DNA from: Antrihabitans stalactiti
Lineage (GTDB): Bacteria > Actinomycetota > Actinomycetes > Mycobacteriales > Mycobacteriaceae
NCBI RefSeq assembly: GCF_012932915.1
Contig: NZ_VCQU01000004.1
Coordinates: 62,001 to 126,000, forward strand
Direction of reading: 5' to 3'
DNA length: 64,000 bases
Of the stretch, positions 22,340 through 39,492 are shown piece by piece. Numbering within the stretch: position 1 is the first letter of the stretch; every line of letters starts with the position of its first letter. The notes below the pieces were generated by a model. The model searched no databases, was not told where the DNA came from, and worked only from the letters and a program-made list of their open reading frames with translations. The position numbers and the translations under genes were made by a program.

Positions 22340-22357
22340 GCAGCCACTATACCGTGC

Positions 22358-23571: not shown

Positions 23572-24954
23572 TCACCTTCGACTCGACGCCGTCGGCGCCT
23601 GCCTTCTCAGGCTCGTCAGCACGGCTTTCGCTGCCCGCTCGCCCGACGCTGCGGCGTCGGCGAGCGACGGCAGATCGAGCTGGTAGTCGCCCGCGAAGTA
23701 GATGGTTCCGAGCGGATCACGCAGCGCCGGAAGCGAGTTCCTTCGCCCCGGTGCCCAGAAGGGCACGACCCGCCGGTGCTTGCGCACGATGCCGCGACCC
23801 AATTTCCCTTCCAGCTCCGGAAACACAGCGAGCAGGTCCGTCGAGAATCGCGACACGATTTCCTCGTCGGACAGGCCGAACAACGCGTCCGCGGCAGCTC
23901 CGCCGGCGAAACACGCGAGTGCTCCGCCCGGCTTGCGATCGTCGCCGGTTCGCATTGCCGCGGCGTGGTTGAACATCGCTTGGAACGACAGCTGCGGAGT
24001 GGAGACAGCGAAGTACTTGTCCCACCGTTGCGGACCGACTTCCTCGGTGAAGAATCCGACAATCACGTAACGGCCATAGGTGATGTCGCTGAACGCATTT
24101 CGATGCTGCTGAGGGAGGTCTGGGATGATCTGCTGGGCGATGTCGGCGGGTGCGGTGACGATCGCACGCTTCGCCCGCAGCCGCACCGGACGATCAGCAC
24201 CGTCGTGGTAGTCGACGACCACGCCGTCATCGTCCTGACGCACCGAGTGCACGACCGAGTTCAGCCGGACACGGTCACCGAGGTCTTCGGTCAGCACGTC
24301 GGTCAGGGTCTGGTTGCCACCCACTGGCAGCGAGAAGTTCGGGATCTTCTCCGGATCGGCGAGCGCGAGGCCCACCGACGTGACGAACTGGGTAGCGGCC
24401 GTCTCCTCCACTTCGCATCCCATCCACTGCGCCGACCATGACCGGACGACCGCATGGGCAAGTTCCGACCGGACGCCCTTCAGCAGGTAGGAGCCCAGTC
24501 TGGTGTCGAGCTTGGCGCGAACTCGTTGTGCGATCCGGCTTTCCGACTCCAAGAACGGCATAACGGCGAGGATGCGTGCACCGACGAGGGCCATGCCGAG
24601 CCGGTCGGTCGAGGTCATCCGGGTGCGAAACATGAGCTCGACGGGATTCGAGGTGTCGACCACCCCGCCGTTGAGATATAGCGCGATGCTCTTGCCTGCA
24701 AGTGAGCCCATTTCGATGCCGTGCCGATCGAGCGCGTCGATCAGCGTGCCAGTACCTTCGGTGAACTGAGTGCCGACATTGATCCAGTAGTCGCCCTGCC
24801 TGACGGTCTCGACTCGTCCGCCCGTGCGATCGGTGGACTCGAGTACAACGACGTCGGCCTCCGATGTCAGCGTTGTCGCGGCCATCAGTCCGGACATTCC
24901 GGCGCCGACGACGACTACATCCGCGCTCTCTTCATCCACTGCGCGCGTCGTCAT
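23572..24954 (-). CDS. flavin monoamine oxidase-like FAD enzyme
   Basis: 460 aa. N-terminal FAD motif VVVVGAGMSGLMAATTL and the GG motif TDRTGGRVETV; C-terminal FAD contact GTIYFAGDYQLDLPSLADAAASGERAA. This layout is that of monoamine/polyamine oxidases. It would oxidise an amine (or a C-C bond next to one) to an imine, releasing hydrogen peroxide. Last gene of the cluster II minus operon; its start overlaps the membrane protein stop (ATGA). A second, PuuB-like FAD enzyme two genes upstream suggests two amine oxidation steps. Confidence 0.85.
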   Translation of the reverse strand: MTTRAVDEESADVVVVGAGMSGLMAATTLTSEADVVVLESTDRTGGRVETVRQGDYWINVGTQFTEGTGTLIDALDRHGIEMGSLAGKSIALYLNGGVVDTSNPVELMFRTRMTSTDRLGMALVGARILAVMPFLESESRIAQRVRAKLDTRLGSYLLKGVRSELAHAVVRSWSAQWMGCEVEETAATQFVTSVGLALADPEKIPNFSLPVGGNQTLTDVLTEDLGDRVRLNSVVHSVRQDDDGVVVDYHDGADRPVRLRAKRAIVTAPADIAQQIIPDLPQQHRNAFSDITYGRYVIVGFFTEEVGPQRWDKYFAVSTPQLSFQAMFNHAAAMRTGDDRKPGGALACFAGGAAADALFGLSDEEIVSRFSTDLLAVFPELEGKLGRGIVRKHRRVVPFWAPGRRNSLPALRDPLGTIYFAGDYQLDLPSLADAAASGERAAKAVLTSLRRQAPTASSRR

Positions 24955-25661
24955 TTCGACTCCACCTGAGCGGCGACACGAGCGTCATCGTTGCTTGCCT
25001 GGGCGTCTACGCGTTTGTTGTGGGCATCGAATGCTCGGTAAGCGCGGAAGTAGGTGAACATCTGCAGGCCCCACGTCGACAGCGCGAAGATGTAGAAGAT
25101 CGTGTGCTCGGCGTCGTCGCCAGGGATGTGAACGTAGTCGTAGATCGCGGCGATGACGGATCCGCAGGCGGTGGCGACGGCGACCCACACGGCGTGTCCG
25201 TGCTCGTTAATGTCCCAGAGCCGCTTGACGAAGTAGCCGACGAAGATCGTGGTGATCACGTTGACCACTATGAAGAAGAGCTTGGCGGGGTTGCCGATCG
25301 TCTCCTGGTAGCCGAGGAGAAACAGGCCGGCGGCGGCGGCGAGGGCGAACGCGCCGACGTCCACTGCGACGGACGGCTTGTATCGGTGTGTGACCGTCAG
25401 GAGCCCGAGGACCAGGATCAGGGTGATGCCCACGGACCGGGAGAATGCGTCCAAGAAGGCGGCGGCGGTGTACATCGGACTGTCATGACCAGCCTGTAGG
25501 AGGCCATAGACCAGGAAGTTCGTTCCCGATGTTGCGACGATGATCCATTCGATGCCGAGCAGGTAATTCTTGTAGTTCCGGATGAACTTGATCCCGTAGG
25601 TGAATCCGACGGCGATCATCCAGATGTCCGCGACCGCGAAGAGCAGTTCTTTGATGGACAT
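24951..25661 (-). CDS. seven-helix membrane protein of unknown family
   Basis: 236 aa with seven probable transmembrane helices (starting ELLFAVADIWMIAVGFTYGIKF, then YLLGIEWIIVATSGTNFLVY, and five more) and a short polar C-terminus. No transporter signature was recognised. It is placed between two FAD amine oxidase genes and overlaps one, so uptake of the amine or an electron-transfer or membrane-anchor role is plausible. The start ATG 25661 follows AAGGAGAAAGCC. Confidence 0.75.
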   Translation of the reverse strand: MSIKELLFAVADIWMIAVGFTYGIKFIRNYKNYLLGIEWIIVATSGTNFLVYGLLQAGHDSPMYTAAAFLDAFSRSVGITLILVLGLLTVTHRYKPSVAVDVGAFALAAAAGLFLLGYQETIGNPAKLFFIVVNVITTIFVGYFVKRLWDINEHGHAVWVAVATACGSVIAAIYDYVHIPGDDAEHTIFYIFALSTWGLQMFTYFRAYRAFDAHNKRVDAQASNDDARVAAQVESK

Positions 25662-25679
25662 GGCTTTCTCCTTGGATGA

Positions 25680-26978
25680 TTATTTCGTGAGGGCTGAGAG
25701 GCGGTCGGCGGCTCGGTCGGCGAGCCAGGTCGCATAGAGCGCGGGTCCGCTGACGAACCCGGGCCAGAAGCGCTTGCGGCCGTGCCAAATTGCCGCCAAG
25801 TCGTTGTGTAGTGGCGCGCCGTCGATCCGGTCCGCCAATAGATGGCCCACATACTGGGCTTGGGCGAACCCGTGGCCGTTGCAGGCCAGTGAGTAGAGCA
25901 CATTGTCGGAGGCCTCACCGGCGACGGGGAGCCACGTGGAGCTCATGCCGATCCAGCCGCCCCACGCCTGCGTCAACTCGACGTCGCGCAAGCCTGGGAA
26001 GCGGTCGTGGAATCCGCGAACGAGGTCGTCGGCGACGTGCTGGTCGGGGGTACGTTCCGGCAGCGGGTTGCGACCGGTCTGGACGCGACGGGTGCCGAAA
26101 ACGATTGTGCCCCGAGGGGTCACGCGATAGCTCTCGATGATCATGTGCAGGGTGACCATCGGGGCACGGCTGGTCCAGCCGATGTCGTCGAGCCGCTCTG
26201 GTGCGACAGGCTCGGTCTCGACCAGCGACGTCCACACCGGTGTTGCGAGGCGCTTCGGCGCTATGGCCAGGCCCGAGCTGTCGGCATTAGTAGTCAGTAA
26301 TGCCTTGCGAGCCTTGACCGTTCCGTTCGGGGTCGCGACGGTGACCCGGTCTCCGGTGTCTGTGACGTCGAGGGCGGGAGTGCGCTCGTAGACGCGTACG
26401 CCGGAGGCGATCGTGGTGGCGCGCAGCCCCAGAACGAACTCCCCCGGGTTGAGGGTGCCGCCGACGCCTTCGCGCACGCCGCCGAGGAAGCCTTCCGGAA
26501 GTCCAGCTTCCGGGCCTTCGACGAATTCGGCCGACGATCCGGCCTCGGCCATGACTTTTGCGTTCCGGCGCGCGTGCCGCAGCTGCCCTTTGGAAACGGC
26601 GGCCATCACGATTCCCTCGGGTTGGTAGCCGCAATCGATCCCGTATTGCTTGATCGCGTCCTCGGTGAAGTGCACCGCGTTCTCGGCGTATCGATAGAGT
26701 TCGCGTAGCCGTTCGCGCTTGAGAAGAAATCCCAGCAGTTCCGGGTCGGCGGCGATCGAGTTCGTGATGTATCCGGCGTTTCGGGAGGTCGCGCCCCAGC
26801 CAAGGGTTTTGGCCTCGAGCAGCACGACATCGACACCTTTGTCGGCGAGGCGGAGTGCGGCCGACATGCCGCCGCCACCGCCTCCGATCACGACGACGTC
26901 ACAGTCGATGTCACCGACCAGATGCGGTTCGACTGTGGCAGGTTGTGCGGCCCAGCCGGTGTCGTGGATCAGTTTCAT
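25680..26978 (-). CDS. DAO-family FAD oxidoreductase, PuuB-like
   Basis: 432 aa from ATG 26978 (an alternative GTG at 26987 overlaps the previous stop). FAD motif VVVIGGGGGGMSAALRLADKGVDVVLLEAKTLGWGATSRNAGYI strongly recalls gamma-glutamylputrescine oxidase (PuuB), which has similar length. PuuB oxidises a gamma-glutamylated amine to an aldehyde, with ammonia and peroxide. A PuuA-like ligase, an aldehyde dehydrogenase and a PuuD-like amidase occur in the same cluster, supporting that role; glycine or other secondary amine oxidase activity remains possible. Confidence 0.8.
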   Translation of the reverse strand: MKLIHDTGWAAQPATVEPHLVGDIDCDVVVIGGGGGGMSAALRLADKGVDVVLLEAKTLGWGATSRNAGYITNSIAADPELLGFLLKRERLRELYRYAENAVHFTEDAIKQYGIDCGYQPEGIVMAAVSKGQLRHARRNAKVMAEAGSSAEFVEGPEAGLPEGFLGGVREGVGGTLNPGEFVLGLRATTIASGVRVYERTPALDVTDTGDRVTVATPNGTVKARKALLTTNADSSGLAIAPKRLATPVWTSLVETEPVAPERLDDIGWTSRAPMVTLHMIIESYRVTPRGTIVFGTRRVQTGRNPLPERTPDQHVADDLVRGFHDRFPGLRDVELTQAWGGWIGMSSTWLPVAGEASDNVLYSLACNGHGFAQAQYVGHLLADRIDGAPLHNDLAAIWHGRKRFWPGFVSGPALYATWLADRAADRLSALTK

Positions 26979-26983
26979 GACAA

Positions 26984-27358
26984 TCACTTACTTTCTGCGG
27001 GGATGACTGCAGTGCCGCGAGCGCGGACCGCGACCAACGGGGACTCCAGTACTGCGGAGCGACCGGTGTCGTCGGAGCCGCGGCAAATCACCCGTAGTTC
27101 GAAATCGACTGTGCGGCTGCGATTTCCCTTTTTCACCAGCTGCGCCTCGGCCTCGACGACATCGCCCCCGCGGATCGGGGCGAGGAACTCGACGGACGAG
27201 TAGCCGGCGAAAAGCCCTTCGTGGCCGTCCATTTCGATCGCGAGGTTGGTGCCGACGTCGCCGAACAATTTCAGGGCGTAGGCGCCGTCGACCAGGTTGC
27301 CCGCGTAGTGTGCGTCGGAAAACGCGACGTAGCGGCGGTGAATTGCTTTGGTCGTCAT
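26984..27358 (-). CDS. hotdog-fold beta-aminoacyl-CoA ammonia-lyase (3-aminobutyryl-CoA ammonia-lyase-like)
   Basis: 124 aa. SDAHYAGNLVDGAYALKLFGD, then EGLFAGYSSVEFLAPIRGGDVVEA and the ending AVRARGTAVIPAE closely follow the 3-aminobutyryl-CoA and beta-alanyl-CoA ammonia-lyases of lysine and alanine fermenters, rather than ordinary thioesterases. These remove ammonia from a beta-aminoacyl-CoA to give an enoyl-CoA. Its start overlaps the monooxygenase stop. A CoA ligase and an enoyl-CoA hydratase in the cluster would provide the steps before and after. A thioesterase or MaoC-like hydratase is the alternative. Confidence 0.75.
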   Translation of the reverse strand: MTTKAIHRRYVAFSDAHYAGNLVDGAYALKLFGDVGTNLAIEMDGHEGLFAGYSSVEFLAPIRGGDVVEAEAQLVKKGNRSRTVDFELRVICRGSDDTGRSAVLESPLVAVRARGTAVIPAESK

Positions 27359-29019
27359 GAGATCTCCTGGTGGATCGGTCCGAGATTGCGCGACAGTGCT
27401 TCGCCGTCGATCGCGACGCCGGGGTAGCCACGCTTGGCGATCTCGGTGCACATGCGTCGGTACTTGCCGACACCGCCGACGTAGCCCATGAAGGTGTTGG
27501 GCTTGCCCTCGACGTTCGAGCCGCGGTACCAGGAGTCGGTGGTGGCGTAGAGGGTTGGCGCAACGGTCTCTTCGGTGATGTCGACCCAGTCGTTCTGCCC
27601 CTCCGCGGTGGCCTCGATCAGGGTCGCTCCGGAATCCCGCGCGTGCTCGATGAGGTCGGCGATCCAGTCGACGGCCTGCTCGATCGACATGACGACATTG
27701 CTTGCGAGCGCGGGGCTCTGCGGGCCGGCGACCATGAAGAAATTGGGGAAGTCCGCCGTCATCATGCCGAGGTAGGTGCGGACACCGTCGCGCCAGGCAT
27801 CCTGCAACTTCTGACCGGATGCGCCCGTGAGACCGAGTCCGTACAGCGGGCCGGTGAAGGCGTCGAATCCGATCGCGAGTACGACGGCGTCCACCTCGTA
27901 CGTGTCGCTCGATGTGACGATCGCGTTCGCGGTCATCGTCTCGATCGGCTCGTCGCGCAGCGACACCAGCGACACGTTGGGCCGGTTGAAGGTCTCGTAG
28001 TAGTCGGTGCCGAAGCAGCTGCGCTTTGCCCCCAACGGGTGGTACTTGGGCACCAGCAACTCAGCCGTTGCCGGATCCTCGACGATTTCGCGGATCTTGT
28101 CGTGGATGAACTCCGATGCCGTGCGATTCGCGTCGATATCCGTGATCAGGTCGGCGAATTCGGCACCGACACCGTTGAAGCCGCTGAGTTCGTAGGCCGC
28201 CTCGTAGCGCCGCAGGCGCTCCTCGTCCGAGACGTCGAAGGCCTTGTCCGTTACGGGGCGCTCGGGGATGCCGCCGAGGGAATGCCGGCATTCCTCGCGG
28301 ATCGCCGGGTAGTCGACCTTGATGGACTCGACTTGTTCGGGCGACAACTCGGAATTGCGCGCCGGCATTACGTAATTCGGGGTGCGCTGGAACACTGTGA
28401 CGTGTTCGGCGACCTGCGCGATGAGTGGGATTGCCTGCACGCCTGAGGATCCGGTGCCGATCACCGCGACGCGCTTGCCCGCGAGATCGTCGAGCGAGAT
28501 GTTCCACCGACTGGTCGATACCTGGAGACCGGTGAAGTTCGCCAGGCCCGGCACGTCGAAGTCCTTGGGAGTCGACAGGCCACCAGCACCCGATATCAAG
28601 TAACGGCTGCGACGGGTCTCGCCGCTGTCCAAATGCACGTCCCACAGTCGGTCGGCCTCGTTCCATGTCGCGCCGACCACGCGGGTGTCGAACGTGAAGT
28701 GCTTGCGCAGGTCGAAGCGGTCGGCGACGTGCTCGATGTAGCGCAGGATCTCGGCCTGCGGCGCGAACCGTTGGCTCCACGTCCACTCCTGCTGCAGCGT
28801 CTCGTCGAACGAGTACGAGTAGTAGATGCTCTCGACATCGCAACGCGCGCCCGGATAGGTGTTCCAGAACCACGTGCCGCCGACGCTCGGTCCGGCTTCG
28901 AAACCTGCGAAGGTCCACCCGGCGGTGGTGAGCCGGTGTGCGAGGTAGAGGCCGGTGAAGCCGGCGCCGACGCCGATGACATCGACGACCCCGGGAGCTG
29001 AGGTGGTGGTGGAGTTCAT
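27355..29019 (-). CDS. Baeyer-Villiger-type flavin monooxygenase lacking the fingerprint histidine
   Basis: 554 aa. FAD motif GVGAGFTGLYLAHRL and the class signature GTWFWNTYPGARCDVESIYYSYSF are canonical for cyclohexanone/phenylacetone-type monooxygenases; the NADPH Rossmann site is VIGTGSSGVQAI. The fingerprint FxGxxxHxxxW appears as FTGLQVSTSRW, with Ser168 (codon at 28516-28518) in place of the His. ATG 29019 has GGAAAG seven bases upstream; ATG 29043 is the alternative. Its role in an amine cluster could be oxygen insertion next to a ketone, or N-oxidation if it behaves as another flavin monooxygenase. Confidence 0.85.
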   Translation of the reverse strand: MNSTTTSAPGVVDVIGVGAGFTGLYLAHRLTTAGWTFAGFEAGPSVGGTWFWNTYPGARCDVESIYYSYSFDETLQQEWTWSQRFAPQAEILRYIEHVADRFDLRKHFTFDTRVVGATWNEADRLWDVHLDSGETRRSRYLISGAGGLSTPKDFDVPGLANFTGLQVSTSRWNISLDDLAGKRVAVIGTGSSGVQAIPLIAQVAEHVTVFQRTPNYVMPARNSELSPEQVESIKVDYPAIREECRHSLGGIPERPVTDKAFDVSDEERLRRYEAAYELSGFNGVGAEFADLITDIDANRTASEFIHDKIREIVEDPATAELLVPKYHPLGAKRSCFGTDYYETFNRPNVSLVSLRDEPIETMTANAIVTSSDTYEVDAVVLAIGFDAFTGPLYGLGLTGASGQKLQDAWRDGVRTYLGMMTADFPNFFMVAGPQSPALASNVVMSIEQAVDWIADLIEHARDSGATLIEATAEGQNDWVDITEETVAPTLYATTDSWYRGSNVEGKPNTFMGYVGGVGKYRRMCTEIAKRGYPGVAIDGEALSRNLGPIHQEIS

Positions 29020-29050
29020 CTTTTCGCTTTCCGTGTTAGTCATACGACTG

Positions 29051-29065
29051 GATCAAATGACTCAC
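29051..29065. promoter_or_regulatory. cluster II operator-like site S1
   Basis: GATCAAATGACTCAC, beside an AT-rich stretch, upstream of the monooxygenase gene. The same core occurs upstream of the FadD gene (S2) and of the MFS and TetR genes (S3). Confidence 0.5.
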
Positions 29066-29110
29066 TTTAATTAAAACAGTGGTCCCGGTCACAGTCAAGG
29101 GGGTGGGTGG

Positions 29111-30568
29111 CTACAGAGGAAGATCGGGTGAATCGACGCCGACCACGCGGTCACCGCAGAACACTCGCACGGACTCGCCGGGGGCGTGACCGCCGATTCC
29201 CGATGTGCCCCAGAAGCTTTGCGCCGAGCCGTCGGCCAAATCTGCGACCTTGGCCCCGTTGACGCGGACTTCGCCCGAGAGCACCCGGGAGCCGACCTCG
29301 ATGGCGCGGTCGAGGTCGCCGCCGAACACGTATGCGTCCAGACCCGATGGGTTGGCATTGGCCACGCGCAGAGCGTCTTCATCGGACTCCACCGCGTGCA
29401 GACTGATCAGCGGTCCGAACAGCTCGGCGGTCGCCAGTGACGCGTCGACTCCGGTTGCGATCGTGGGAGACAGGAAGAACCCGTCGAGGTCGGGGAGTCG
29501 TGCAGGCTGATGAATGGTCGCACCGTGTGCCCGCAGGCCTTCGATGCGACTTCGCAATGTGGCGAAGTGCGGGGCGTTGGAGATCGGTCCCAATTGGGTA
29601 CTCTCCTCGAGCGAATGCCCGACCCGTATGCGGGCGATGCGATCGAGCAGCGCGTCCAGGAGGGGTTCGACAAGACTCTTGTGCGCCAACACCTTTCCAG
29701 GGCCTTCACACCACTGACCGTTGAGCTTGGTCATGCCCTCGAGGATCCCGTCGGCGGTGACGTCGATGTCGGCGTCGTCCAGTACGAGGGCTGGGTTGTT
29801 GCCGCCGAGCTCGAGCTGGAGCACCTTGAAGTCTTCCGCTGCAGCGCGAGCGATCGCCCGCCCGGCGTTCGGACCACCGGTGAACGAGACGATCTTTACG
29901 CGGGGATCGGCGGTGATGGCCGCACCCACATCGCCCGCGCCGTGGACGAGCTGCAGCGCACCGTCCGGCAGCCCGGCCTTGACGAAACACTCGACGATGA
30001 TCTGGGCGCTACTTGGCGCGTGCTCCGACGGCTTGAGGATGACGGGGCAACCCGCTGCGAGCGCGCTGACCAGCTTCGCGGCCGGAATGAAGCTCGGCCC
30101 GTTCCACGGGGTCAGGATCGCCGCGGGTCCCCACGGGACCTTGTACAGCCGCACGTCACGCCCGCCCGCTTGCAGGGCAGTGCGACGCGGGATGGACCGA
30201 AGTTCCGCCGCCGATGAGCGGATGCGGTGCGGGAGGAACTGAGCGACCATTCGTGCCTTCGCGATCGGAACGCCGCTGGTGAGCGCATCGGTCCGGGCGA
30301 TATCTTCGATCCGATCTTCGACGATCTCGGCGGCACGCTCGATGACTGCCGCGCGTTCTTCGCTTGCGGCGTCATCCCAGCGTTCGAAGCCGTACGACCG
30401 CTCGGCATGCCGCAGGGCGCGCTCCACGTCGTCTGCGCTGGTGGTGACCGCACGGTGGACCGGTTCGCCTGTGTTGGGATCGAGGTTCCACGAGCGTGGG
30501 ATCGTTGCGCAATCGGACCACTGATCGGCGATGTAGTTGATCGGCTGGGGCAGTTGCGGATTCGACAT
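29111..30568 (-). CDS. aldehyde dehydrogenase (PuuC position)
   Basis: 485 aa. WGPAAILTPWNGPSF, FTGGPNAGRAIA, LELGGNNPALVL and catalytic Cys in LNGQWCEGPGKVL. In a Puu-type pathway it would oxidise the gamma-glutamyl-aminoaldehyde from the PuuB-like enzyme to the acid. The divergence of the Cys region (GQWC rather than GQ.C.A) suggests a subgroup distinct from the cluster I enzyme. It lies 25 bases past the alcohol dehydrogenase stop and is followed by 67 bases with site S1. Confidence 0.9.
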   Translation of the reverse strand: MSNPQLPQPINYIADQWSDCATIPRSWNLDPNTGEPVHRAVTTSADDVERALRHAERSYGFERWDDAASEERAAVIERAAEIVEDRIEDIARTDALTSGVPIAKARMVAQFLPHRIRSSAAELRSIPRRTALQAGGRDVRLYKVPWGPAAILTPWNGPSFIPAAKLVSALAAGCPVILKPSEHAPSSAQIIVECFVKAGLPDGALQLVHGAGDVGAAITADPRVKIVSFTGGPNAGRAIARAAAEDFKVLQLELGGNNPALVLDDADIDVTADGILEGMTKLNGQWCEGPGKVLAHKSLVEPLLDALLDRIARIRVGHSLEESTQLGPISNAPHFATLRSRIEGLRAHGATIHQPARLPDLDGFFLSPTIATGVDASLATAELFGPLISLHAVESDEDALRVANANPSGLDAYVFGGDLDRAIEVGSRVLSGEVRVNGAKVADLADGSAQSFWGTSGIGGHAPGESVRVFCGDRVVGVDSPDLPL

Positions 30569-30593
30569 CCGAGTCTCCTTTTCGTAGGTGTGC

Positions 30594-31688: not shown

Positions 31689-31701
31689 TGTGTCTCCAGT
31701 T

Positions 31702-32472
31702 TCAATTTCTCGTCGCAGGCGCAACGTTTTTGGCTGCCCAGAATCCCTCGATACCGTCGGTGAAGGCGCCGGTCTCCCAGGACTGCCGGGCGGCATCGTC
31801 TTCGCGGACGAAAGCTGCCTCGATGTCTTCCGGACGTGGCCGCAGCAGGCTGAGGTGAAGCGCGGTGGTTCGCGGATCGGAGTTCCACTGCCTGATCACC
31901 TCGGCCGAGCGATGCAGTAGTTCCTCCGCAGGCACGACCTCGTCGAGCAACCCGATCCGCAAAGCATCATCTGCATCGATTCGGTTGGAGCCCAGAATGA
32001 TTCGCATCGCGTGGTTGCGTACCAGGCGGCGCATGAGGACGCTCGACGCGTTGGATATGACGATCCCGCGGTGGTTCTCCGGCTGGTAGTACTCGGCAGC
32101 GGGACTGCCGATACGAGAGTCGCAGCACAATGTGATTTCCGAGGCCCCGCCGACCGCGATCCCGTTCACGGCAGCGATCACCGGGACCGTCGTTTCGAGA
32201 ATCGCGCGGGTGATGTCGTGGAAGGTCGCGAATGCCGTGCGGATCTCGTCGTACGTCGTCGGCACCGCATGTAGGTCTTCACCGGCGGAGAAGGCCCGGC
32301 CCGTGCCCGTGAGCACGATCCCGCGGACGCGATCGCCCTTCCCAAATCGGCGGATGGCCTGCGCGAGCCGAATCCGGGTCGCCACGTCCAGCACGTTCAG
32401 CTTGGCCGGGCGATTCATCGTGAGCACCGCGACGTCGTCGTCGATGTGCACATTCAAGTAGGTGTCGGTCAT
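31702..32472 (-). CDS. enoyl-CoA hydratase/isomerase family protein
   Basis: 256 aa crotonase. RAFSAGEDLHAVP and NGIAVGGASEITLCCDSRIG mark the oxyanion hole; the segment after it (EYYQPENHRGIVISNASS) is less typical, and one of the usual catalytic Glu positions is not obvious. Start overlaps the stop of the CoA ligase. It could hydrate the enoyl-CoA released by the ammonia-lyase-like protein. Confidence 0.88.
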   Translation of the reverse strand: MTDTYLNVHIDDDVAVLTMNRPAKLNVLDVATRIRLAQAIRRFGKGDRVRGIVLTGTGRAFSAGEDLHAVPTTYDEIRTAFATFHDITRAILETTVPVIAAVNGIAVGGASEITLCCDSRIGSPAAEYYQPENHRGIVISNASSVLMRRLVRNHAMRIILGSNRIDADDALRIGLLDEVVPAEELLHRSAEVIRQWNSDPRTTALHLSLLRPRPEDIEAAFVREDDAARQSWETGAFTDGIEGFWAAKNVAPATRN

Positions 32473-34082
32473 GTCCGGCTCCTCGACAGGTCGTAGGTGG
32501 TGCCGGGACGTTCGGCGGCTCGGGCCTTCAATACCGGCTTCGAAATGCGCTCGGATGGCGTGCGAGGGAAATCGGCCACGAACTCCACATAACGCGGTAT
32601 TTTGAAGCGCGCCAGTTGATTTCGCGCCTCGGTGATGATCCGTTCTGCCGTCGCGCGGCTCTCGTCGACACCGGGGGCCAACTGGACGAACGCCTTGACC
32701 TCCTCGCCGAACAGCTCGTCCGCGATGCCGACCACCGCTGCGGCGACGACGGCGCCGTCGCGTTCCAGAACCCGCTCGACCTCAGCGCTGGCGATGTTCT
32801 CGCCGCCGCGCCGGACCATGTCCTTGATGCGGCCGACCAGTCGGTAGCTGCCCGTCTCGCGGACTGCGACATCGCCGGTGTGCAGCCAGCCGTCGCGCAG
32901 GACCTGCGCGGTGGCGTCGGGACGGTTCCAGTAGCCGAGCATCATGGGTTCGCCAGAAGTGATCAGCTCACCGGACTCGCCTTCTGCGACATCCCTGCCC
33001 TGCGGATCGACCACTCTGACCTGCTTGGTCGGCACCGGTCGGCCCAACCGCCCGGTGCCGACGTCGGCCGTGCTCTCGGGCAGGCTGACCAGGTCCGCAC
33101 CGCTTTCGGTCATCCCGAAGATCTCCCGCCACGGCGCGCCCCACCGCTGTTCGAGCTGCGCATGTAGTGCGACCGGGATCGCCGAACACAGCACCAGGCG
33201 CAGGTCGTTGTCCTGGTCCTGCGTGCTCGGTGCCTGCTTGAACAGCAGGGTCGGCATCGAGCCGAGCACGTAGCAGAACGTGGCCCGGTGCCTTCTGACG
33301 TCGGCCATGAATCCGGAGGCGGAGAATCGGGGTAGCACCACCAGCGGCGCGCCGATAGTGAGACACAACGACGTGTTCCACTGGGGGTCCATGTACGAGA
33401 AGGGCTGCGAGGTGAGGACGACGTCGTTGGCGTCCAGGTCCGCCGCGCCCGCGCAGATCCACCCCAGCTGGGTCCAGTAATCGTGGGTCAGCATGCAGGC
33501 TTTCGGGAATCCGGTTGTCCCCGAGGTGTACTGAAGGTTGGCTAGCGTGCCTCCGGAGATCGCGACCGCCGGACGGTTCGCGGGATACTGCGCGAGCGTG
33601 TCCCGCGAACCGGTTTTGACGATCCTGACATCAGCCAGGTCGTCGTTCGCGGTCCGCACCTCGTCGACGAGCGGGGTGCGCGCCGTGTCGGTGACCAGCA
33701 ACCGAGCGCCGGAGTCCCGGAGCACGAATTCGAGGTCCGCGCGCTGGTATGACGAGTTCACCGGTACCGCGACGCCGCCGGCTTTCAGAGTGGCGAGCCA
33801 TGCGACCGGCCACGCCACCACGTTGGGCAGCATGATCGCGACCCGGTCGCCTGCGCGGACCCCGAACTCGTCGACCAGGCGGTGGGCCAGGCGCGAGGTC
33901 CAGTCGTCGACCTCGCCGAAGGTCCACGAACCCTCGGCAAACCGAAGGAACTCGGCATTGGAGTTCCTGCGAGCTTGGTCGGTCAGCAGGCCGACGACAG
34001 TGTCGATCAGCGGGTCTTGCGCCAACCGGCCCAGAGCTGGATCACGTTGCAGGCGAACTGATTCGACACCAGTCATGGTCAT
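32469..34082 (-). CDS. AMP-forming acyl-CoA synthetase
   Basis: 537 aa. LQYTSGTTGFPKACMLTHDYW (P-loop), FGMTESGADLVSLPEST, GWLHTGDVAVRETGSYRLVGRIKDMVRRGGENIASAEVE and the C-terminal RTPSERISKPVLKA. The sequence resembles crotonobetaine/carnitine-CoA ligase (CaiC) types, which accept small polar amino-acid-like acids, consistent with activation of a beta-amino acid. First gene of a unit that continues into EchA; site S2 lies about 65 bases upstream. Confidence 0.9.
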   Translation of the reverse strand: MTMTGVESVRLQRDPALGRLAQDPLIDTVVGLLTDQARRNSNAEFLRFAEGSWTFGEVDDWTSRLAHRLVDEFGVRAGDRVAIMLPNVVAWPVAWLATLKAGGVAVPVNSSYQRADLEFVLRDSGARLLVTDTARTPLVDEVRTANDDLADVRIVKTGSRDTLAQYPANRPAVAISGGTLANLQYTSGTTGFPKACMLTHDYWTQLGWICAGAADLDANDVVLTSQPFSYMDPQWNTSLCLTIGAPLVVLPRFSASGFMADVRRHRATFCYVLGSMPTLLFKQAPSTQDQDNDLRLVLCSAIPVALHAQLEQRWGAPWREIFGMTESGADLVSLPESTADVGTGRLGRPVPTKQVRVVDPQGRDVAEGESGELITSGEPMMLGYWNRPDATAQVLRDGWLHTGDVAVRETGSYRLVGRIKDMVRRGGENIASAEVERVLERDGAVVAAAVVGIADELFGEEVKAFVQLAPGVDESRATAERIITEARNQLARFKIPRYVEFVADFPRTPSERISKPVLKARAAERPGTTYDLSRSRT

Positions 34083-34147
34083 CTTCTCCAGGGTTGTTCG
34101 GTCGCGATTCGGACCGGGACTGTGGCTCTGGTCATACTTTAACCGAA

Positions 34148-34190
34148 GTGGGTCATTTGATCAAGACATATGACACACTTGATCGAATCA
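34148..34190. promoter_or_regulatory. cluster II operator-like site S2 (two copies)
   Basis: The minus strand of 34148-34165 reads CTTGATCAAATGACCCAC, nearly the same as S1. A second, weaker copy at 34171-34190 reads TGATTCGATCAAGTGTGTCA. They lie upstream of the FadD gene and overlap the last codons of the MFS gene. Confidence 0.5.
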
Positions 34191-35657
34191 AGATGCGTGC
34201 GTGCCAACGCGCCGCCTGGATCGAGCGCGTGAGATCAGCACGGTCACCACGACGAGCATCGCGAGAACTGCCGCCAACCAGTAGCCGAAGCCGTAGAGGC
34301 CCTTCGCGGCGACGTCGAGGCCGGATTCGAGGGTCGGAACCAGAGAAGCACTGAGGTCGCCGCTGATCAGTGCGGTGCCGAAGGCGAAACCCACGGCCAT
34401 GGAGGTGCCGGCGACGCCCGCCGCCATTCCGGCTTTCTCTTCGGGAACTGCCATCTGCACGACCGTGAAACCGGCTGCGTAGCCGATTCGCGTCCCGAGG
34501 CCGATGACGGCAGCGCCGATGAGGTACTGCCACTGGCGATCATGGGCAACGGCGAGCCAGACCAAACCCGATGCACAGATGAGTGCACCGATGACGAATA
34601 CCTGCACACCACGGCCATTGGCCAAGGCGCGGTCGAGCACTGTTCCACGGATCAGGAACGCGACGGCGAAGGGCGCCATGAGCAAGCCGGTCTGCAGGGC
34701 GCTGAGCCCGAGTCCGTAGGCGTCGGATGGACGAAGATCGCTCGGAACGATCTGGGCGTAGGTGCTGAGGAGCAGCAGGAAGGCTGAATTCACCGCGGCG
34801 AACAATGCGATGCACAAGCACGACGCGGTGACCAAAGGCGCCTTCATCAGTGCGACATCGAACACGGCCGAAGTCGATCGGCGTTCGACGCGCACCCACG
34901 CAATGCCGCCGACCACGCCGATCAGCAACGGAACGAGTGCCGCAGTCCCCCACACGAGGCCTTGTGTCAGCGTCAGCAGAATCGCCGCAACCCAAGCGAT
35001 CATCCACACCGTGCCGAGCGCTCCGATGCGGCCGGCACGTTCGGCAGGTGGTGCGTGCGGGATTGTCACGTAGCACGCAATGGTCGTCGCGGCGCATACA
35101 ACGGTGAGAAGGATGAAGAAGCTTCGCAGCGACAACGTTTCGACGATGAAGCCACCACCGATCATGCCGACGACGATGCCGACGCCGGTGGCGATGACCA
35201 GCACCGCAACACCCACTGTGATGCCGTCGTCGCCGAGGTTGCGACGCAGGAAGCCGAGCGGAAGCAGCTGCGCCGCCCCGCCGAAGCCCATCAGGATGCA
35301 GCCGACCAGAAGCGTCGGATACGAGTCACCCACCGCCGGAACGAGGGCTCCGACCGTAAGGAATGCGGCTGCCGCCACGGAGGCGTTTCGGTCGCCGTGC
35401 AGATCGGCGAGCCGGGGCAGCAAGATGAAGCCTGCTCCGCCGCCGAGCGTCAGTGCCGTATAGAGCCACGTCGTCTCGGCCACAGTGGCGAGGCCGTACT
35501 GCGCCTGGATGATCGGCAGCAGCGGCGGAAGGATGAAGATGACCGCGTTGGTCAAGACGATCAGCAAAGCGCCGACGCCGACGAGCACTCCCTTGTGCGG
35601 CACAGGGTTGGCAGCCACCCCGTCGCCGTATCGGATTTGTTGGCCGATTTCTGTCAT
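34188..35657 (-). CDS. MFS transporter
   Basis: 489 aa with 12-14 hydrophobic helices, typical of the DHA2-like major facilitator group (GGGAGFILLPRLADLHGDR is the loop 2-3 motif). ATG 35657 follows GGAGAAAC. It probably imports the cluster II substrate or exports a toxic amine. It is divergent from the TetR gene at 35883, with site S3 in the 225-base gap. Confidence 0.9.
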   Translation of the reverse strand: MTEIGQQIRYGDGVAANPVPHKGVLVGVGALLIVLTNAVIFILPPLLPIIQAQYGLATVAETTWLYTALTLGGGAGFILLPRLADLHGDRNASVAAAAFLTVGALVPAVGDSYPTLLVGCILMGFGGAAQLLPLGFLRRNLGDDGITVGVAVLVIATGVGIVVGMIGGGFIVETLSLRSFFILLTVVCAATTIACYVTIPHAPPAERAGRIGALGTVWMIAWVAAILLTLTQGLVWGTAALVPLLIGVVGGIAWVRVERRSTSAVFDVALMKAPLVTASCLCIALFAAVNSAFLLLLSTYAQIVPSDLRPSDAYGLGLSALQTGLLMAPFAVAFLIRGTVLDRALANGRGVQVFVIGALICASGLVWLAVAHDRQWQYLIGAAVIGLGTRIGYAAGFTVVQMAVPEEKAGMAAGVAGTSMAVGFAFGTALISGDLSASLVPTLESGLDVAAKGLYGFGYWLAAVLAMLVVVTVLISRARSRRRVGTHAS

Positions 35658-35754
35658 GAGTTTCTCCGATTCGTGAGGTTTTGTGAATGAGGCCTTGACC
35701 GGGCAGATCGCGCCGCTGTGATGCCGGTCATACGCTAAACGCACATGTTCAAAC

Positions 35755-35773
35755 GATCAAGTCGAATGACTCA
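35755..35773. promoter_or_regulatory. cluster II operator-like site S3
   Basis: GATCAAGTCGAATGACTCA, in the gap between the divergent MFS and TetR genes, shares the GATCAA and ATGACTCA elements of S1 and S2. The position suits control of both genes. Confidence 0.5.
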
Positions 35774-35882
35774 AATCAATGTCAACGTAAAGGTCGGGTC
35801 ATCTCGCAGCTAGCCGATTCGGCTGGTAACGTTGGCATTGACTTGATCACCTGTCCATTACCAAGCTCGACAAGGAGGACGC

Positions 35883-36563
35883 ATGGCGCGCATTCCGGCC
35901 GTCGAACGTCGCGCCGACCTGGTGGCGGCGGCAGTACGCACGATCGCCGCCCATGGCGTGGACGGCGCCACCACCCGCAAGATCGCGGAGGAAGCGAACG
36001 CCCCCCTCGCCACGCTGCATTACTGCTTCGCGACGAAGGAGGTTCTGTTCGCAGCAGTCTTCGAGCACGTAGCGCAGCAATATCGAGAAGTGTTGATGCG
36101 CAATGACGTTCACGGAAACTTGGTGGCAACGGCGCGCGCCATGCTGCGCGGGCAATTGGAGTGGTACCTGACGAATCGAGACTTCACCACAGCCACCGTC
36201 GAACTGATCAGCTGGGCCCAACGCCAGGAAGGTGAACAGGCCGAGATGGTGTACAACGAGGCATTCGCAACCGTGCGGACAATCCTCGAGCGCGCAGAAA
36301 CCGCTCCCGGCCAGTCGGTCGACCCCGACACCCTCGATGCCCTGAGCTACATCATGACCACGCTGTCGGACGGATTCGCGCTCAACTGGTTGGTGTTCAC
36401 AGACCGCACAGCGGCGCAGAAACAGATCGACCTCACCATCGGCGTGCTCGACGCGTGGATGTCTGCCAACCTCGGCGGCTCCATCGCACCTGCTGTCCCC
36501 GCCCCGAAGGTCTCGCCCGAGGAAACGCTGCGCTCCCTCGTCTCCTGGGTCAGTGTCGATTGA
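35883..36563 (+). CDS. TetR-family regulator of cluster II
   Basis: 226 aa with HTH DGATTRKIAEEANAPLATLHYCFATKEVLF. Strong ribosome site AAGGAGG nine bases before the ATG. Divergent from the MFS gene and convergent with the PuuD-like gene across a bidirectional terminator. The shared S1-S3 motif makes it the likely regulator of the monooxygenase, FadD and MFS units; the inducer would be an amine or CoA intermediate (inference). Confidence 0.88.
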   Translation: MARIPAVERRADLVAAAVRTIAAHGVDGATTRKIAEEANAPLATLHYCFATKEVLFAAVFEHVAQQYREVLMRNDVHGNLVATARAMLRGQLEWYLTNRDFTTATVELISWAQRQEGEQAEMVYNEAFATVRTILERAETAPGQSVDPDTLDALSYIMTTLSDGFALNWLVFTDRTAAQKQIDLTIGVLDAWMSANLGGSIAPAVPAPKVSPEETLRSLVSWVSVD

Positions 36564-36583
36564 ACTAGCCTGACTCGAAAGAA

Positions 36584-36619
36584 ACTGTCGGCCATCATCT
36601 TTCGGTGATGGCCGACAGT
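36584..36619. terminator. bidirectional hairpin between convergent genes
   Basis: Fourteen-base perfect arms ACTGTCGGCCATCA and TGATGGCCGACAGT with an eight-base loop lie between the convergent TetR gene (stop 36563) and the PuuD-like gene (stop 36628). Confidence 0.8.
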
Positions 36620-36627
36620 CGTTCCTG

Positions 36628-37383
36628 TCAGCTCCGTGCGCTGGCCTCCGCCACGATCCAACTCAACGTCGGGTCGTCGCGCTCCATCCACTCTGGATGC
36701 CACTGGACGCCGAGCACCGGCGATCCTGGCAGCTCGATCGCTTCGACGACGCCGTCACCGGTTCGCCCAGTGACCAGCAAGCCGGTGCCACAGCGGTCGA
36801 CCGCCTGATGGTGCCACGAGTTGGTCACCGCACTTGCGCCGAAAAGCCGTTCCGCGATCGAATCGGGCTCGAATGCCACCTTGTGATCGTCGGCGCCGTC
36901 GGTGACCGGCGGTGCAGCCGACAAATGTGTGACCGCGCCCGGTGGCAGATGCGGGATCAACGTGCCGCCCAGCGCGATGTTGAGCACCTGCAGTCCGCGG
37001 CACACCCCCAGTACAGGGATGTTCCTTTGGAGCGCAGCCCGAACCAGTGCGATCTCGAACTCGTCCCGTTCGACGTCGTGAACCATCGGATTGCTCCGTG
37101 GGTCCACGTCCCGAACCACCGACACGTCGCCACCCCAATACGCAGGATGGACATCCTGGCCACCCGTGATCACCACGCCGGACAGCCAGTGGCACAGCGC
37201 TTCTGGGTCCGCGTCGTACGGCAGGTTGACCGGAACCCCGCCGGCACGGGCTATCCGCGCCGAGAAGTCGGACATGAACGTGTCGGCGTACAGGTGACCG
37301 TAGCGAGTGTCCATGCCGTCGATCAGCCCCAGCCGTACCCGTCGGCCCGTAGTGCCGATCAGCGGTGCGATTCCTGCGGTCAC
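36628..37383 (-). CDS. class I glutamine amidotransferase-like hydrolase (PuuD-like)
   Basis: 251 aa from a GTG overlapping the stop of the ligase gene. Nucleophile GVCRGLQVLNIALGG, partner motif WHPEW, and ITGGQDVHPAYW match gamma-glutamyl-gamma-aminobutyrate hydrolase (PuuD, 254 aa), which removes the gamma-glutamyl group at the end of the Puu pathway. Overlap with the PuuA-like ligase supports a shared pathway. A second role in other gamma-glutamyl compounds cannot be excluded. Confidence 0.85.
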   Translation of the reverse strand: MTAGIAPLIGTTGRRVRLGLIDGMDTRYGHLYADTFMSDFSARIARAGGVPVNLPYDADPEALCHWLSGVVITGGQDVHPAYWGGDVSVVRDVDPRSNPMVHDVERDEFEIALVRAALQRNIPVLGVCRGLQVLNIALGGTLIPHLPPGAVTHLSAAPPVTDGADDHKVAFEPDSIAERLFGASAVTNSWHHQAVDRCGTGLLVTGRTGDGVVEAIELPGSPVLGVQWHPEWMERDDPTLSWIVAEASARS

Positions 37384-38735
37384 GGGAATTCGAAGTAGCG
37401 GGCCGACTCCCATTCCGAGAGCTCGGCGAACGGATCGCCGCCGGTGGTGTGGAACGCCATCCACTCCCAGCGCCGAGTACCGACCCAGTAGTCGACGAAC
37501 TCGTCGCCGAGCTGCTCGCGCAGGATCAGGTCCGTCTCGAGCGCGGCCGCCGCCTTGGTAATGGTGTCTGGAAGGCGCTCGAGATCGGGAACACACCACG
37601 CCATGTCGGACACCGGTTCGGGCGGCTCGATTGCGCCGTCGAGGCCGGCGACCACACCGGCGAGAATGGCCGCGACCGCGAGGTACAGGTTCGCGTCGGC
37701 GCCCGGGACGCGGTACTCGAGACGGGAGTACGCCGGGTGCCCACACACCGCGCGCACCGCAGTCGTTTTGTTGCTGATCCCCCACGTGACCGTCGTGGGA
37801 GGGCCGCTCAGGTCGACCAAGCGGCGGTAGGACGTGATCTGCGGGAGCATGATCGACGTTGCGCCGGGCATCGTGGCGAGGAGTCCGCCGACCGCATGCC
37901 GCATCGTCGGCGACGGTCCGTCGGGGGCGTAGAACGCGTTGACCCCGTCGCGCTGTAGGGAGAGGTTGACATGCGAGGCCTGGCCGTACCCAGCGGTCGG
38001 CTTGGCCATGAAGGTGACCGTGTGACCGAGCTCGAATGCCACCTCGCGCATCACCTGCCGGGCACGAGCCCACGCATCGCACACCGAGATCGGGTCACCT
38101 GGAACGAGATTCAGCTCGACCTGGCCAGCCGCGTCCTCGTCGCTCCATGCCTCCCACTCGATGCCGATCTCGTCGAGTCGCCGCGCGACCGCCGACATGT
38201 AATCGATCCAGTCCTTCGACTTCGCCAGGTGGTACGCGGTGCCTGCAGAACCGCCGAGCGGGGTGAGGTCGCGATATCCCTTCGCCCGCGCTTGGTCGAT
38301 GGACTCCTGGAACAGCGTTGCTTCGATCTCGACCGCGACCGTGGCCGTGAAACCCCTGGTTGCGAGTCGGTCGACCAGCTTCCGGGCAAGGTTGCGCGGA
38401 CAAAGACCCACCGGAGTGCCGTTGGGCTGCCAGTAGTCACCGATCACAGACTGCAGTCCGGGTTCCCACTCGACCAGCGTCGACAAGTCTGGCCGGAACT
38501 GCAGGTCGGCGAGGTGGCCACGCCAATCGGGGTAGGCGAATCCGAAGGTCGGCGCGTTGCCGAGGTCCAGACCGAACAGCAGGTCGGCGAACGCGAAACC
38601 CGAGCCCGCGCTCGCAGCGAACTTCTTGGGCGCCACATTCTTTCCGAGGAAGCAACCCTCGTGGTTGGTGGCTTCCAGCCGGACCGTGTGAACAGACGGA
38701 TCGAAAGCAATTGCGGTAGAGCTGATTTCAGACAT
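37380..38735 (-). CDS. glutamine-synthetase-like gamma-glutamyl-amine ligase (PuuA-like)
   Basis: 451 aa. EIEATLF, SDEDAAGQVELNL, GYGQASHVNLSLQR and RLEYRVPGADANLYLAVAAILAG are the metal, glutamate and nucleotide elements of the GlnA fold. The sequence belongs with GlnA-like amine ligases (PuuA, IpuC) rather than true GlnA: the N-terminal domain is reduced and no adenylylation-site region is visible. It would attach glutamate to an amine using ATP. Its start overlaps the SCP2-like gene. Confidence 0.85.
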   Translation of the reverse strand: MSEISSTAIAFDPSVHTVRLEATNHEGCFLGKNVAPKKFAASAGSGFAFADLLFGLDLGNAPTFGFAYPDWRGHLADLQFRPDLSTLVEWEPGLQSVIGDYWQPNGTPVGLCPRNLARKLVDRLATRGFTATVAVEIEATLFQESIDQARAKGYRDLTPLGGSAGTAYHLAKSKDWIDYMSAVARRLDEIGIEWEAWSDEDAAGQVELNLVPGDPISVCDAWARARQVMREVAFELGHTVTFMAKPTAGYGQASHVNLSLQRDGVNAFYAPDGPSPTMRHAVGGLLATMPGATSIMLPQITSYRRLVDLSGPPTTVTWGISNKTTAVRAVCGHPAYSRLEYRVPGADANLYLAVAAILAGVVAGLDGAIEPPEPVSDMAWCVPDLERLPDTITKAAAALETDLILREQLGDEFVDYWVGTRRWEWMAFHTTGGDPFAELSEWESARYFEFP

Positions 38736-39393
38736 CGTAACGAACCTTCCAGGACGCGGCGACAAGCACCGACAACTGCGAGAGCGTGCCGCGCACGCCG
38801 ACCAGACCAGTGGAGAGGGCGGCGATCAGATCGTCGGCGCCCGAGAAGATGCCGGCCAGCAGGTCCGGCGGGCCGGCGATGACGTAGTGGGTTTCCCCTT
38901 CGCCGACCACGTGTTGATCGAGTCCGTCGGGGCCCTCGGTCACCGCGACGAGAACGTCGGGGATACCCGGCACCGATCGAGCCGCGGCCCAGAACGACTC
39001 TGCGGCGACCCGCCAATCCGGCAGCGGCGGCGACAGCAAAGCCACCGCGGTAGCGGCAAGGTCGCCTGCGCCGATCGGCTCGCCGACCAGGGCCAATCGA
39101 CCGTTCAGGTCGACGGTCAGGGTGAGGTCGGGCTCGACGAAGACGCCGCTCGATACTGCGACGGCACCGTCCGTGATGGTGATCGTCGCGGCTTGCGGGG
39201 TGTCGTGCGAGCGCACCGCCACAGTGCCTTCCACTCCAGCAGCGACGGAGTCGGCTCCGTTGCTGCGGACGGAATCGGCGATGGTCCGGCCGATCAGCCG
39301 GACGATCGGACTCGCATCGTCTTCGATCCGTAAGTCGACCTCGCCGAGCGCGTCATTCGCGCGAGTCGCGAGACCGAGTGTCGTTTCGGTCAT
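38728..39393 (-). CDS. SCP2-like / hypothetical protein
   Basis: 221 aa. The central part (VRSHDTPQAATITITDGAVAVSSGVFVEPDLTLTVDLNGRLALVGE) resembles the SCP2 sterol-carrier fold, but weakly. No membrane segment or catalytic motif. First gene of the unit that continues into the ligase and amidase. AAAGGACG lies before the ATG at 39393; longer starts near 39435 are possible. It may bind a hydrophobic intermediate; the role is unknown. Confidence 0.6.
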   Translation of the reverse strand: MTETTLGLATRANDALGEVDLRIEDDASPIVRLIGRTIADSVRSNGADSVAAGVEGTVAVRSHDTPQAATITITDGAVAVSSGVFVEPDLTLTVDLNGRLALVGEPIGAGDLAATAVALLSPPLPDWRVAAESFWAAARSVPGIPDVLVAVTEGPDGLDQHVVGEGETHYVIAGPPDLLAGIFSGADDLIAALSTGLVGVRGTLSQLSVLVAASWKVRYDV

Positions 39394-39417
39394 CGTAGCG
39401 TCCTTTCGTTCTTCATT

Positions 39418-39441
39418 GTCATTTGTCTCAGTCATCTGACT
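39418..39441. promoter_or_regulatory. cluster II candidate operator S4
   Basis: GTCATTTG (complement CAAATGAC, as in S1/S2) is followed by the palindrome AGTCATCTGACT (39430-39441), in the gap between the divergent SCP2-like and esterase genes. The match to S1-S3 is partial. Confidence 0.3.
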
Positions 39442-39492
39442 ATGATGGTGAGGCACAGATCACTTCTTGTCAACGACTGCGAAGGTTCTCAG

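Follow-up and report, generated by a model that had tools for sequence, protein, structure and literature searches.

Gamma-glutamylation is known as a tag on putrescine, ethanolamine, isopropylamine and aromatic amines, and a Baeyer-Villiger monooxygenase (BVMO) is paired with a carboxylesterase in the acetone monooxygenase and esterase (AcmAB) of Gordonia TY-5, a system not known to involve an amine or a gamma-glutamyl tag. Here we describe a gene cluster that holds genes of both kinds, at positions 23572–40455 of a 64,000-nucleotide stretch of Antrihabitans stalactiti DNA (assembly GCF_012932915.1, contig NZ_VCQU01000004.1), hereafter the window. With the E. coli Puu pathway the cluster shares a ligase, a DAO-family oxidase, an aldehyde dehydrogenase (ALDH) and a C26 amidase, at 27–33% identity, but it adds a BVMO, an esterase (LipP), an alcohol dehydrogenase (ADH), an SCP2-like protein, a CoA ligase (ACS), a hotdog protein (KAL) and a crotonase (ECH), and has a TetR-type regulator in place of PuuR.

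The degradation of cyclohexylamine likewise combines an enzyme of the amine oxidase family with a type I BVMO (PMC3608611), but the accessible part of that report contains neither a gamma-glutamyl tag nor an amidase, and the amine oxidase of the cluster (AMO) is distantly related. In the beta-valine pathway of Pseudomonas SBV1 (BvaA, BvaB1, BvaB2), as far as the available text describes it, a CoA ligase is followed by a CoA-dependent ammonia lyase in an aerobe and crotonase-family enzymes take part, as in the cluster; however, BvaB proteins are crotonases rather than hotdog proteins, BvaA resembles phenylacetate-CoA ligase, and the open reading frames (ORFs) listed there include no gamma-glutamylation and no BVMO (PMC4619459). 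KAL belongs to the same hotdog family as clostridial beta-alanyl-CoA:ammonia lyase and the Kal of lysine fermentation, but differs from them in the replacement of two fixed acidic residues and in its gene neighbourhood, and its nearest actinobacterial relatives lie in lysine 5,6-aminomutase gene neighbourhoods. Among the titles and abstract beginnings of the open-access literature, and within the reach of the terms used, we found no report joining gamma-glutamylation with a BVMO; a first-pass annotation of this DNA likewise knew of no described pathway that combines such parts. The presence of a glutamine synthetase gene beside the morpholine P450 genes was not confirmed. In a molinate degrader, glutamine synthetase gene numbers lie close to those of a P450 system, and the authors, in the part of the report available, read the synthetase as serving ammonium assimilation (PMC9477822).

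Gene content and conservation of the cluster

The cluster is a real, conserved and apparently co-regulated catabolic unit, whose core seems to be known chemistry newly combined; we found no description of it. Tentatively, and with our judgement close to balanced, we read it as a regulon for amine catabolism in which the carbon skeleton would undergo Baeyer-Villiger cleavage while the nitrogen bears a gamma-glutamyl tag. The host genome measures 6.76 Mb, with the window at 62001–126000 of its contig (64% GC), and the cluster comprises about 14 genes. Families were assigned from ORFs and from Pfam and NCBIfam models, and start codons were trimmed by eye with the help of orthologs and overlaps, so that starts are predictions. 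The genes are as follows (window coordinates, strand, product).

23572–24954, minus: AMO, FAD amine-oxidoreductase-family enzyme (PF01593, 139 bits)
24951–25661, minus: membrane protein with seven transmembrane helices (7-TM), no Pfam or NCBIfam family
25680–26987, minus: DAO-family FAD oxidase, PuuB-like (PF01266, 182 bits; 26.7% over 435 amino acids to PuuB)
26984–27358, minus: KAL, hotdog protein from a divergent clade of the 3-aminobutyryl/beta-alanyl-CoA ammonia-lyase family (NF052388, 157.7 bits; predicted start)
27355–29019, minus: BVMO, phenylacetone-monooxygenase-like (530 bits to phenylacetone monooxygenase 1w4x; predicted start)
29111–30568, minus: ALDH (PF00171, 359 bits; 28.9% to PuuC)
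30594–31688, minus: Zn-dependent ADH (PF08240 and PF00107; predicted start)
31702–32472, minus: ECH, crotonase-family enzyme (PF00378, 139 bits)
32469–34082, minus: ACS, AMP-forming acyl-CoA ligase (PF00501, 250 bits)
34188–35657, minus: major facilitator superfamily (MFS) transporter (PF07690; predicted start)
35883–36563, plus: TetR-family regulator (PF00440, 39 bits)
36628–37383, minus: PuuD-like gamma-glutamyl amidase, C26 (PF07722, 174 bits; 33% to PuuD)
37380–38735, minus: glutamine synthetase (GS)-like gamma-glutamyl-amine ligase, PuuA-like (PF00120, 261 bits; 29.5% over 444 amino acids to E. coli PuuA)
38728–39393, minus: SCP2-like protein, putatively tandem (PF02036, 13.8 bits, below cut-off)
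39493–40455, plus: LipP, HSL-type esterase (PF07859, 248 bits; HGGG and GDSAG motifs; predicted start)

Codon-position GC is consistent with the assigned frames, and given the predicted starts there are 4-base overlaps at BVMO/KAL, KAL/DAO, membrane protein/AMO, ECH/ACS and GS/PuuD. Family scans and BLAST against the puu genes of E. coli K-12 agree that ligase, oxidase, ALDH and gamma-glutamyl amidase of a Puu-type pathway co-occur here; judged by alignment, the likeness (27–33% identity) is one of family rather than orthology, and among the cluster proteins compared by BLAST there is no relative of PuuE. The PuuD-like amidase keeps its GVCRG and WHPE motifs and has a predicted GTG start that overlaps the GS stop. 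Each part that the first-pass annotation had named (Puu-like ligase, oxidase and amidase, ALDH, CoA ligase, hotdog protein, crotonase, BVMO-like and membrane proteins) was recovered by family scans and BLAST, although its list lacked the esterase, the SCP2-like protein, the Zn-ADH, the TetR and MFS genes and the separate second FAD oxidase. Its view that gamma-glutamylation is joined to CoA activation and a relative of beta-aminoacyl-CoA ammonia lyases agrees, for the window variant, with the families present.

A scan with the hotdog protein yielded 24 related loci, whose gene content was determined by tblastn, and the cluster was found again in Nocardia, Rhodococcus, Hoyosella, Gordonia, Streptomyces and Amycolatopsis. 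The BVMO gene stands directly before KAL in 23 of the 24 loci (the exception is L021), the membrane protein is present in 21 and the DAO-family oxidase in 16, and LipP and SCP2 are divergently paired in the window and in 12 loci, of which 11 are independent. In three loci from Streptomyces, Haloechinothrix and Amycolatopsis (L023–L025), LipP, BVMO and KAL lie in line, with AMO behind them in two, and this line is divergent from SCP2, GS, PuuD, ACS, ECH and, as far as the stretch reaches, ADH/ALDH. MFS homologs occur in L014, L087, L091, L092, L094 and L096.

Among 301 genomes of the host family, KAL of the cluster type (74–100% identity, 147–160 bits) was found in 16, two further KALs (in G223, and on C5 of G289) being of other types, at 50% and 58%, and the next matches scoring 33 bits. 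The BVMO ortholog (73–100% identity; next best match 52%) occurs in 14 genomes, all of them among the 16 with cluster-type KAL and none among the 285 others. A class-wide draw of 394 genomes had KAL over the cut-off in 69 and added one more cluster (G500, the Streptomyces of L023); of the loci over the cut-off, 30 were read with 1.5-kb flanks and 20 with about 20 kb or the available contig, and none of these was this cluster. Grouping by chance is rejected, since the gene order was found again in 24 loci, KAL and BVMO co-occur and an operator-like repeat is common to the genes.

Two loci, in G215 (L098) and Mycobacterium PS03-16 (L021), carry a different flavin monooxygenase (FMO) followed by an alpha/beta hydrolase, which takes the place of LipP while SCP2 is present. 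The replacement FMOs are about 87% identical to each other and about 30% to the BVMO; the FMO carries the classical motif in L021 (FQGDIIHPQHWP) and is itself split over two frames in L098. With BVMO and LipP swapped for an FMO and an alpha/beta hydrolase, the oxygenase-plus-hydrolase step appears to be kept and its enzymes exchanged.

As separate observations, Nocardia tenerifensis NBRC 101015 has two cluster copies on two contigs (L013, L019), and in the window a perfect hairpin with 10-bp arms, possibly a bidirectional terminator, lies at 36587–36616 between the ends of the TetR and PuuD genes. The SCP2-like protein gave a model (pLDDT 82.4) that matches the SCP2 fold in Foldseek, with 11 hits at E <= 0.001, a best E of 2.6e-4 and probability 1.0, and that of the membrane protein has seven helices (pLDDT 83.9) and weak matches only, best E 0.0015, all of them 7-TM receptors among the matches listed.

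A putative operator shared by the transcription units

The 23-bp pattern GTCAWNYGAYYNRGNCNWNTGAC, derived from inverted repeats in the window and its relatives, occurs before every predicted transcription unit of the cluster.

29039–29061: operator-like site upstream of BVMO, 0–1 mismatches
34152–34174: operator-like site upstream of ACS, 0 mismatches
35748–35770: operator-like site between MFS and TetR, 1 mismatch
39418–39440: operator-like site between SCP2 and LipP, 1 mismatch

Allowing up to 3 mismatches, we counted 10 matches in the window over both strands, several of them double hits on a single site; 1.5 were expected, and all 100 shuffles gave fewer than 10. In the whole 6.76-Mb genome, the six matches with 0–1 mismatch represent four places, all inside the cluster; five further matches have 2 mismatches, two of them being the opposite strand of cluster sites, and the backwards pattern used as a control gave 8 genome matches at up to 2 mismatches. 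In 39 related loci we counted 88 sites with up to 1 mismatch, 83 of which lie within 260 bases upstream of cluster genes, while 25 control loci (other KAL contexts) had none, and the reversed pattern gave none. Seven pairs among the 39 loci are one genome region seen twice, which leaves about 32 independent loci. The site statistics are partly circular, because some of these sites served to define the pattern, and the weight of the evidence lies in how silent the rest of the genome is and in where the sites fall in relatives. A shared putative operator before each unit, with little elsewhere, suggests one TetR-type regulon, putatively controlled by the TetR protein of the cluster.

The remaining 5 of the 88 sites stand just before a gene for a nitronate-monooxygenase/FabK-like flavoprotein, which is not in the window cluster and joins it in 8 of the 24 loci (L002:12280–13275, L014:13837–14817, L021:11625–12683 and five more; PF03060 in both scanned); the loci with the site are L002, L003, L008/L089 and L009. 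Beside the cluster, at window 17014–22366, lies a same-strand set comprising a FadD11-like ligase, an alpha/beta hydrolase, an ALDH and a Zn-ADH, in which no operator-like site was found at 0–1 mismatch.

Sibling clusters and a near-constant core

We selected 12 further loci from the same 301 genomes by GS homology (48–67%), leaving out L098 and seven listed rows, and compared the gene content of these siblings (tblastn at 1e-15; families named by Pfam) with that of 40 control regions of 20 kb each, sampled in eight of these genomes. By tblastn, KAL is present in none of the 12. PuuD (12/12 versus 0/40 controls), ADH (12/12 versus 1/40) and ALDH (12/12 versus 3/40) are present throughout; SCP2 is found in 10 (all 12 at a looser 1e-8; 0/40 controls) and a BVMO or FMO in 10 (4/40). 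An esterase of the LipP/ABH type (0/40) and an AMP-forming ligase (4/40) occur in eight siblings each, as do an imine-reductase-like gene and an APC permease (both 0/40); the counts are seven for a PhyH-like gene, five each for ECH and the DAO-family oxidase, and four for a diaminopimelate (DAP)-dehydrogenase-like gene, all versus 0/40. GS was the selection criterion, and the queries for imine reductase, DAP dehydrogenase, PhyH, APC and one BVMO came from the siblings, so that their counts start at one. The imine-reductase query had no match in 12 loci of the KAL-bearing kind, and this clue thus comes from siblings only.

Five siblings (L155–L158, L165) closely resemble the window cluster but have an FMO and a hydrolase, with ACS and ECH present and KAL absent. 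The other seven (L159–L164, L166) are simpler, with ADH between GS and PuuD in most. These seven combine SCP2, GS, ADH, PuuD and ALDH with imine-reductase-, DAP-dehydrogenase- or PhyH-like genes and APC permeases, and may represent separate pathways for amines or amino acids. Across the set, the near-constant core consists of genes to tag (GS), oxygenate (BVMO kind), hydrolyse (esterase kind), oxidise (ADH, ALDH) and untag (PuuD); variable are the entry enzyme acting on the C-N bond (AMO, DAO, a second amine oxidase, or imine-reductase- or DAP-dehydrogenase-like) and the exit (ACS, ECH, KAL or none).

Proposed route and alternative readings

From these gene families we infer the following reactions and their order. 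The simplest chemistry starts with an amino-ketone that the entry enzyme would form from an amine. Acting on an amine that is cyclic or sits on a secondary carbon, AMO and the DAO-family oxidase would oxidise a C-N bond to an imine or ketone, giving an amino-ketone whose free amine would be gamma-glutamylated by the PuuA-like ligase, which would block re-cyclisation and protect the nitrogen. The BVMO would then form an ester, LipP would hydrolyse it to a gamma-glutamyl amino-alcohol, ADH and then ALDH would oxidise this to a gamma-glutamyl amino acid, and the PuuD-like amidase would release the amino acid, in the window variant a beta-amino acid. ACS would activate the latter, and KAL, the crotonase or both would deaminate and hydrate it, feeding beta-oxidation. 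BVMOs convert N-protected amino-ketones into amino-acid or amino-alcohol esters, and imine reductases act on cyclic imines. Further precedents are the conversion of cyclohexylamine to adipate via an amine oxidase and then a BVMO (PMC3608611) and the action of a CoA ligase and an ammonia lyase on beta-valine (PMC4619459).

A 2-substituted pyrrolidine or 1-pyrroline, opened to a gamma-amino-ketone, would employ each enzyme: after BVMO and esterase it would yield a 3-aminopropanol unit and, after ADH, ALDH and PuuD, a beta-amino acid. Since this outcome suits ACS, KAL and ECH, we favour a substrate of the pyrrolidine type for the variant in the window, doubtful as it is when taken by itself. The remark of the first-pass annotation that a larger or cyclic amine might be involved fits better than the substrate it had headlined, 1,3-diaminopropane.

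Several observations weigh against Baeyer-Villiger cleavage of a gamma-glutamylated amine by these enzymes. The DAO-family oxidase is absent from eight and AMO from three of the 24 loci (AMO being present in 21), where L022 is a contig of 4.7 kb. L090, in G194, keeps LipP, KAL, DAO, membrane protein and AMO without the other queried genes, GS and BVMO included, in 20 kb; it may be a remnant or variant of the cluster, and elsewhere in G194 lies a sibling cluster (L161) that includes GS and FMO. Two siblings (L159, L160) have no BVMO or FMO in 20 kb and four (L159, L162, L163, L166) no LipP/ABH-type esterase by tblastn, and operator-like sites with 0–1 mismatch are lacking in L015 and in the 20 kb of L090. 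GS and PuuD fall under the cut-offs of the NCBIfam equivalogs for gamma-glutamylputrescine synthetase (161.6 versus 650 bits) and gamma-glutamyl-GABA hydrolase (83.8 versus 266 bits). The BVMO shows overall homology to type I BVMOs, with the GGxWxxxxxPGxxxD motif in all rows covering that region, but the classical fingerprint, FxGxxxHxxxW[P/D], is altered to FxGxxVSTSxWN in 51 rows, His being replaced by Ser in all 51. Finally, by window KAL numbering, E37 is replaced in all 27 cluster rows (by N in 20, H in 4, D in 3) and D45 is H in all 27, while both are kept in all 35 non-cluster family members compared, the segment of beta-alanyl-CoA:ammonia lyase 2 (Acl2) included. As proof of lost BVMO function the missing His is weakened by its absence from 6 of 16 phenylacetone-monooxygenase-like paralogs in the same genomes (Leu in five, Arg in one; L139, L141, L143, L144, L145, L147).

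The two replaced residues bear on which enzyme removes the ammonia. KAL just misses the curated cut-off of NF052388, for 3-aminobutyryl-CoA ammonia lyase (157.7 versus 160 bits), which among its relatives G264 reaches only with neighbours in frame (160.1 bits); its best PDB chain is Acl2 (4mtu, 75 bits), the next being a thioesterase-like chain at 26 bits. Other common residues of the ammonia-lyase family are kept, as is D33, whose counterpart in the aligned thioesterase-like chain is an Asp. The label ammonia-lyase-like in the first-pass annotation is borne out by these scores and called into question by the loss of E37 and D45; because the cluster clade lacks the two fixed acidic residues, KAL is a candidate lyase only, and a plain thioesterase appears disfavoured by 75 bits against 26, that loss notwithstanding.

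It is possible, though less likely than not, that the crotonase removes ammonia, as BvaB does from beta-valinyl-CoA, and that the hotdog protein carries out another CoA-thioester reaction, as a hydratase, a thioesterase or an enzyme with a different leaving group; this is a sub-question, compatible with tagged Baeyer-Villiger cleavage. In all 37 crotonase rows the two catalytic Glu are retained, and the loop that follows carries Ile or Val in place of the Pro of the canonical motif. Besides the altered KAL residues, the five siblings that have ACS and ECH but no KAL argue for this role; the nearness of KAL to the lyase cut-off, about 2 bits, and its other conserved family residues argue against it. 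Crotonase-type ammonia lyases have been described, and the missing Pro of BvaB is discussed, in the accessible portion of PMC4619459.

KAL relatives at 50–65% identity occur in other actinobacteria. Of 20 long actinobacterial KAL loci (L106–L125), 18 lie beside a lysine 5,6-aminomutase-like gene family (one member scanned was lysine 5,6-aminomutase alpha, PF09043; a beta-like gene has PF16554), which suggests B12-dependent genes of the lysine-fermentation type in these lineages. Other contexts include a beta-keto acid cleavage enzyme (L101), an ADP-forming-type CoA ligase (L099) and AMP-forming ligases (L103, L104).

Returning to the substrate, a carbocyclic diamine (aminocycloalkylamine) is an unlikely alternative to an opened cyclic amine: an FAD oxidase would make a cyclic ketone, the BVMO a lactone that LipP would open, and ADH and ALDH the diacid half, with GS and PuuD handling the second nitrogen. 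The order of amine oxidase then BVMO is that published for cyclohexylamine (PMC3608611), and the window also has esterase, ADH, ALDH and CoA ligase, but the resemblance of AMO to cyclohexylamine oxidase is distant (34–40 bits), and the imine-reductase-like genes of eight siblings favour cyclic imines, provided that these are the substrates of such enzymes here. The best NCBIfam models of AMO score far below cut-off, and PDB matches of both AMO and DAO are too distant for naming a substrate. The C-terminal motif of AMO is conserved in 33 aligned rows, and its C-terminus is unlike that of monoamine oxidase, lacking the aromatic cage.

Improbable in our estimate is the route headlined by the first-pass annotation: 1,3-diaminopropane, perhaps from spermidine, would receive the gamma-glutamyl tag and be acted on by the PuuB-like oxidase and ALDH, PuuD would release beta-alanine, and ACS and KAL would turn this into acryloyl-CoA, with BVMO and LipP serving a side activity. 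The window has a matching family for each step, and the best PDB match of KAL is a beta-alanyl-CoA:ammonia lyase. However, this route leaves BVMO, LipP, ADH and SCP2 idle, though they are conserved and lie under or downstream of the same operator-like sites, and in the siblings, where KAL is absent, PuuD, ADH and ALDH stay, with a BVMO or FMO in 10 of the 12. With these genes idle yet operator-linked and kept in siblings without the lyase, the route is not the best reading, and the headlined substrate is probably wrong.

Very unlikely, finally, is an altered BVMO that oxygenates nitrogen, which would explain the nitronate-monooxygenase-like gene, or an aldehyde, in which case a putrescine-type chain would lose one carbon by way of a formate ester and end as a beta-alanine unit. 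The invariant fingerprint change and the operator-like site before that gene in some relatives speak for such activities, but the gene joins only a minority of loci, is missing from the window and occurs in 2 of the 40 control regions, and the BVMO keeps K336, R337, D66 and W501 of phenylacetone monooxygenase.

It is conceivable, though we lean towards doubt, that Mycobacteriales and their relatives have a common, previously undescribed strategy in which an amine ring is opened to an amino-ketone, locked by a gamma-glutamyl group and cut in its chain by BVMO and esterase, and the shortened amino acid is released, the window variant being finished by a re-tooled clade of the ammonia-lyase family. 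The gamma-glutamyl tag appears to be tied to BVMO-type carbon-chain cleavage in several actinobacterial genera. If this is true, it would give a physiological role to a clade of phenylacetone-monooxygenase-like enzymes, would provide a regulon whose operator-like site is defined and which is testable in Rhodococcus koreensis, and would suggest how soil actinobacteria take apart cyclic amines.

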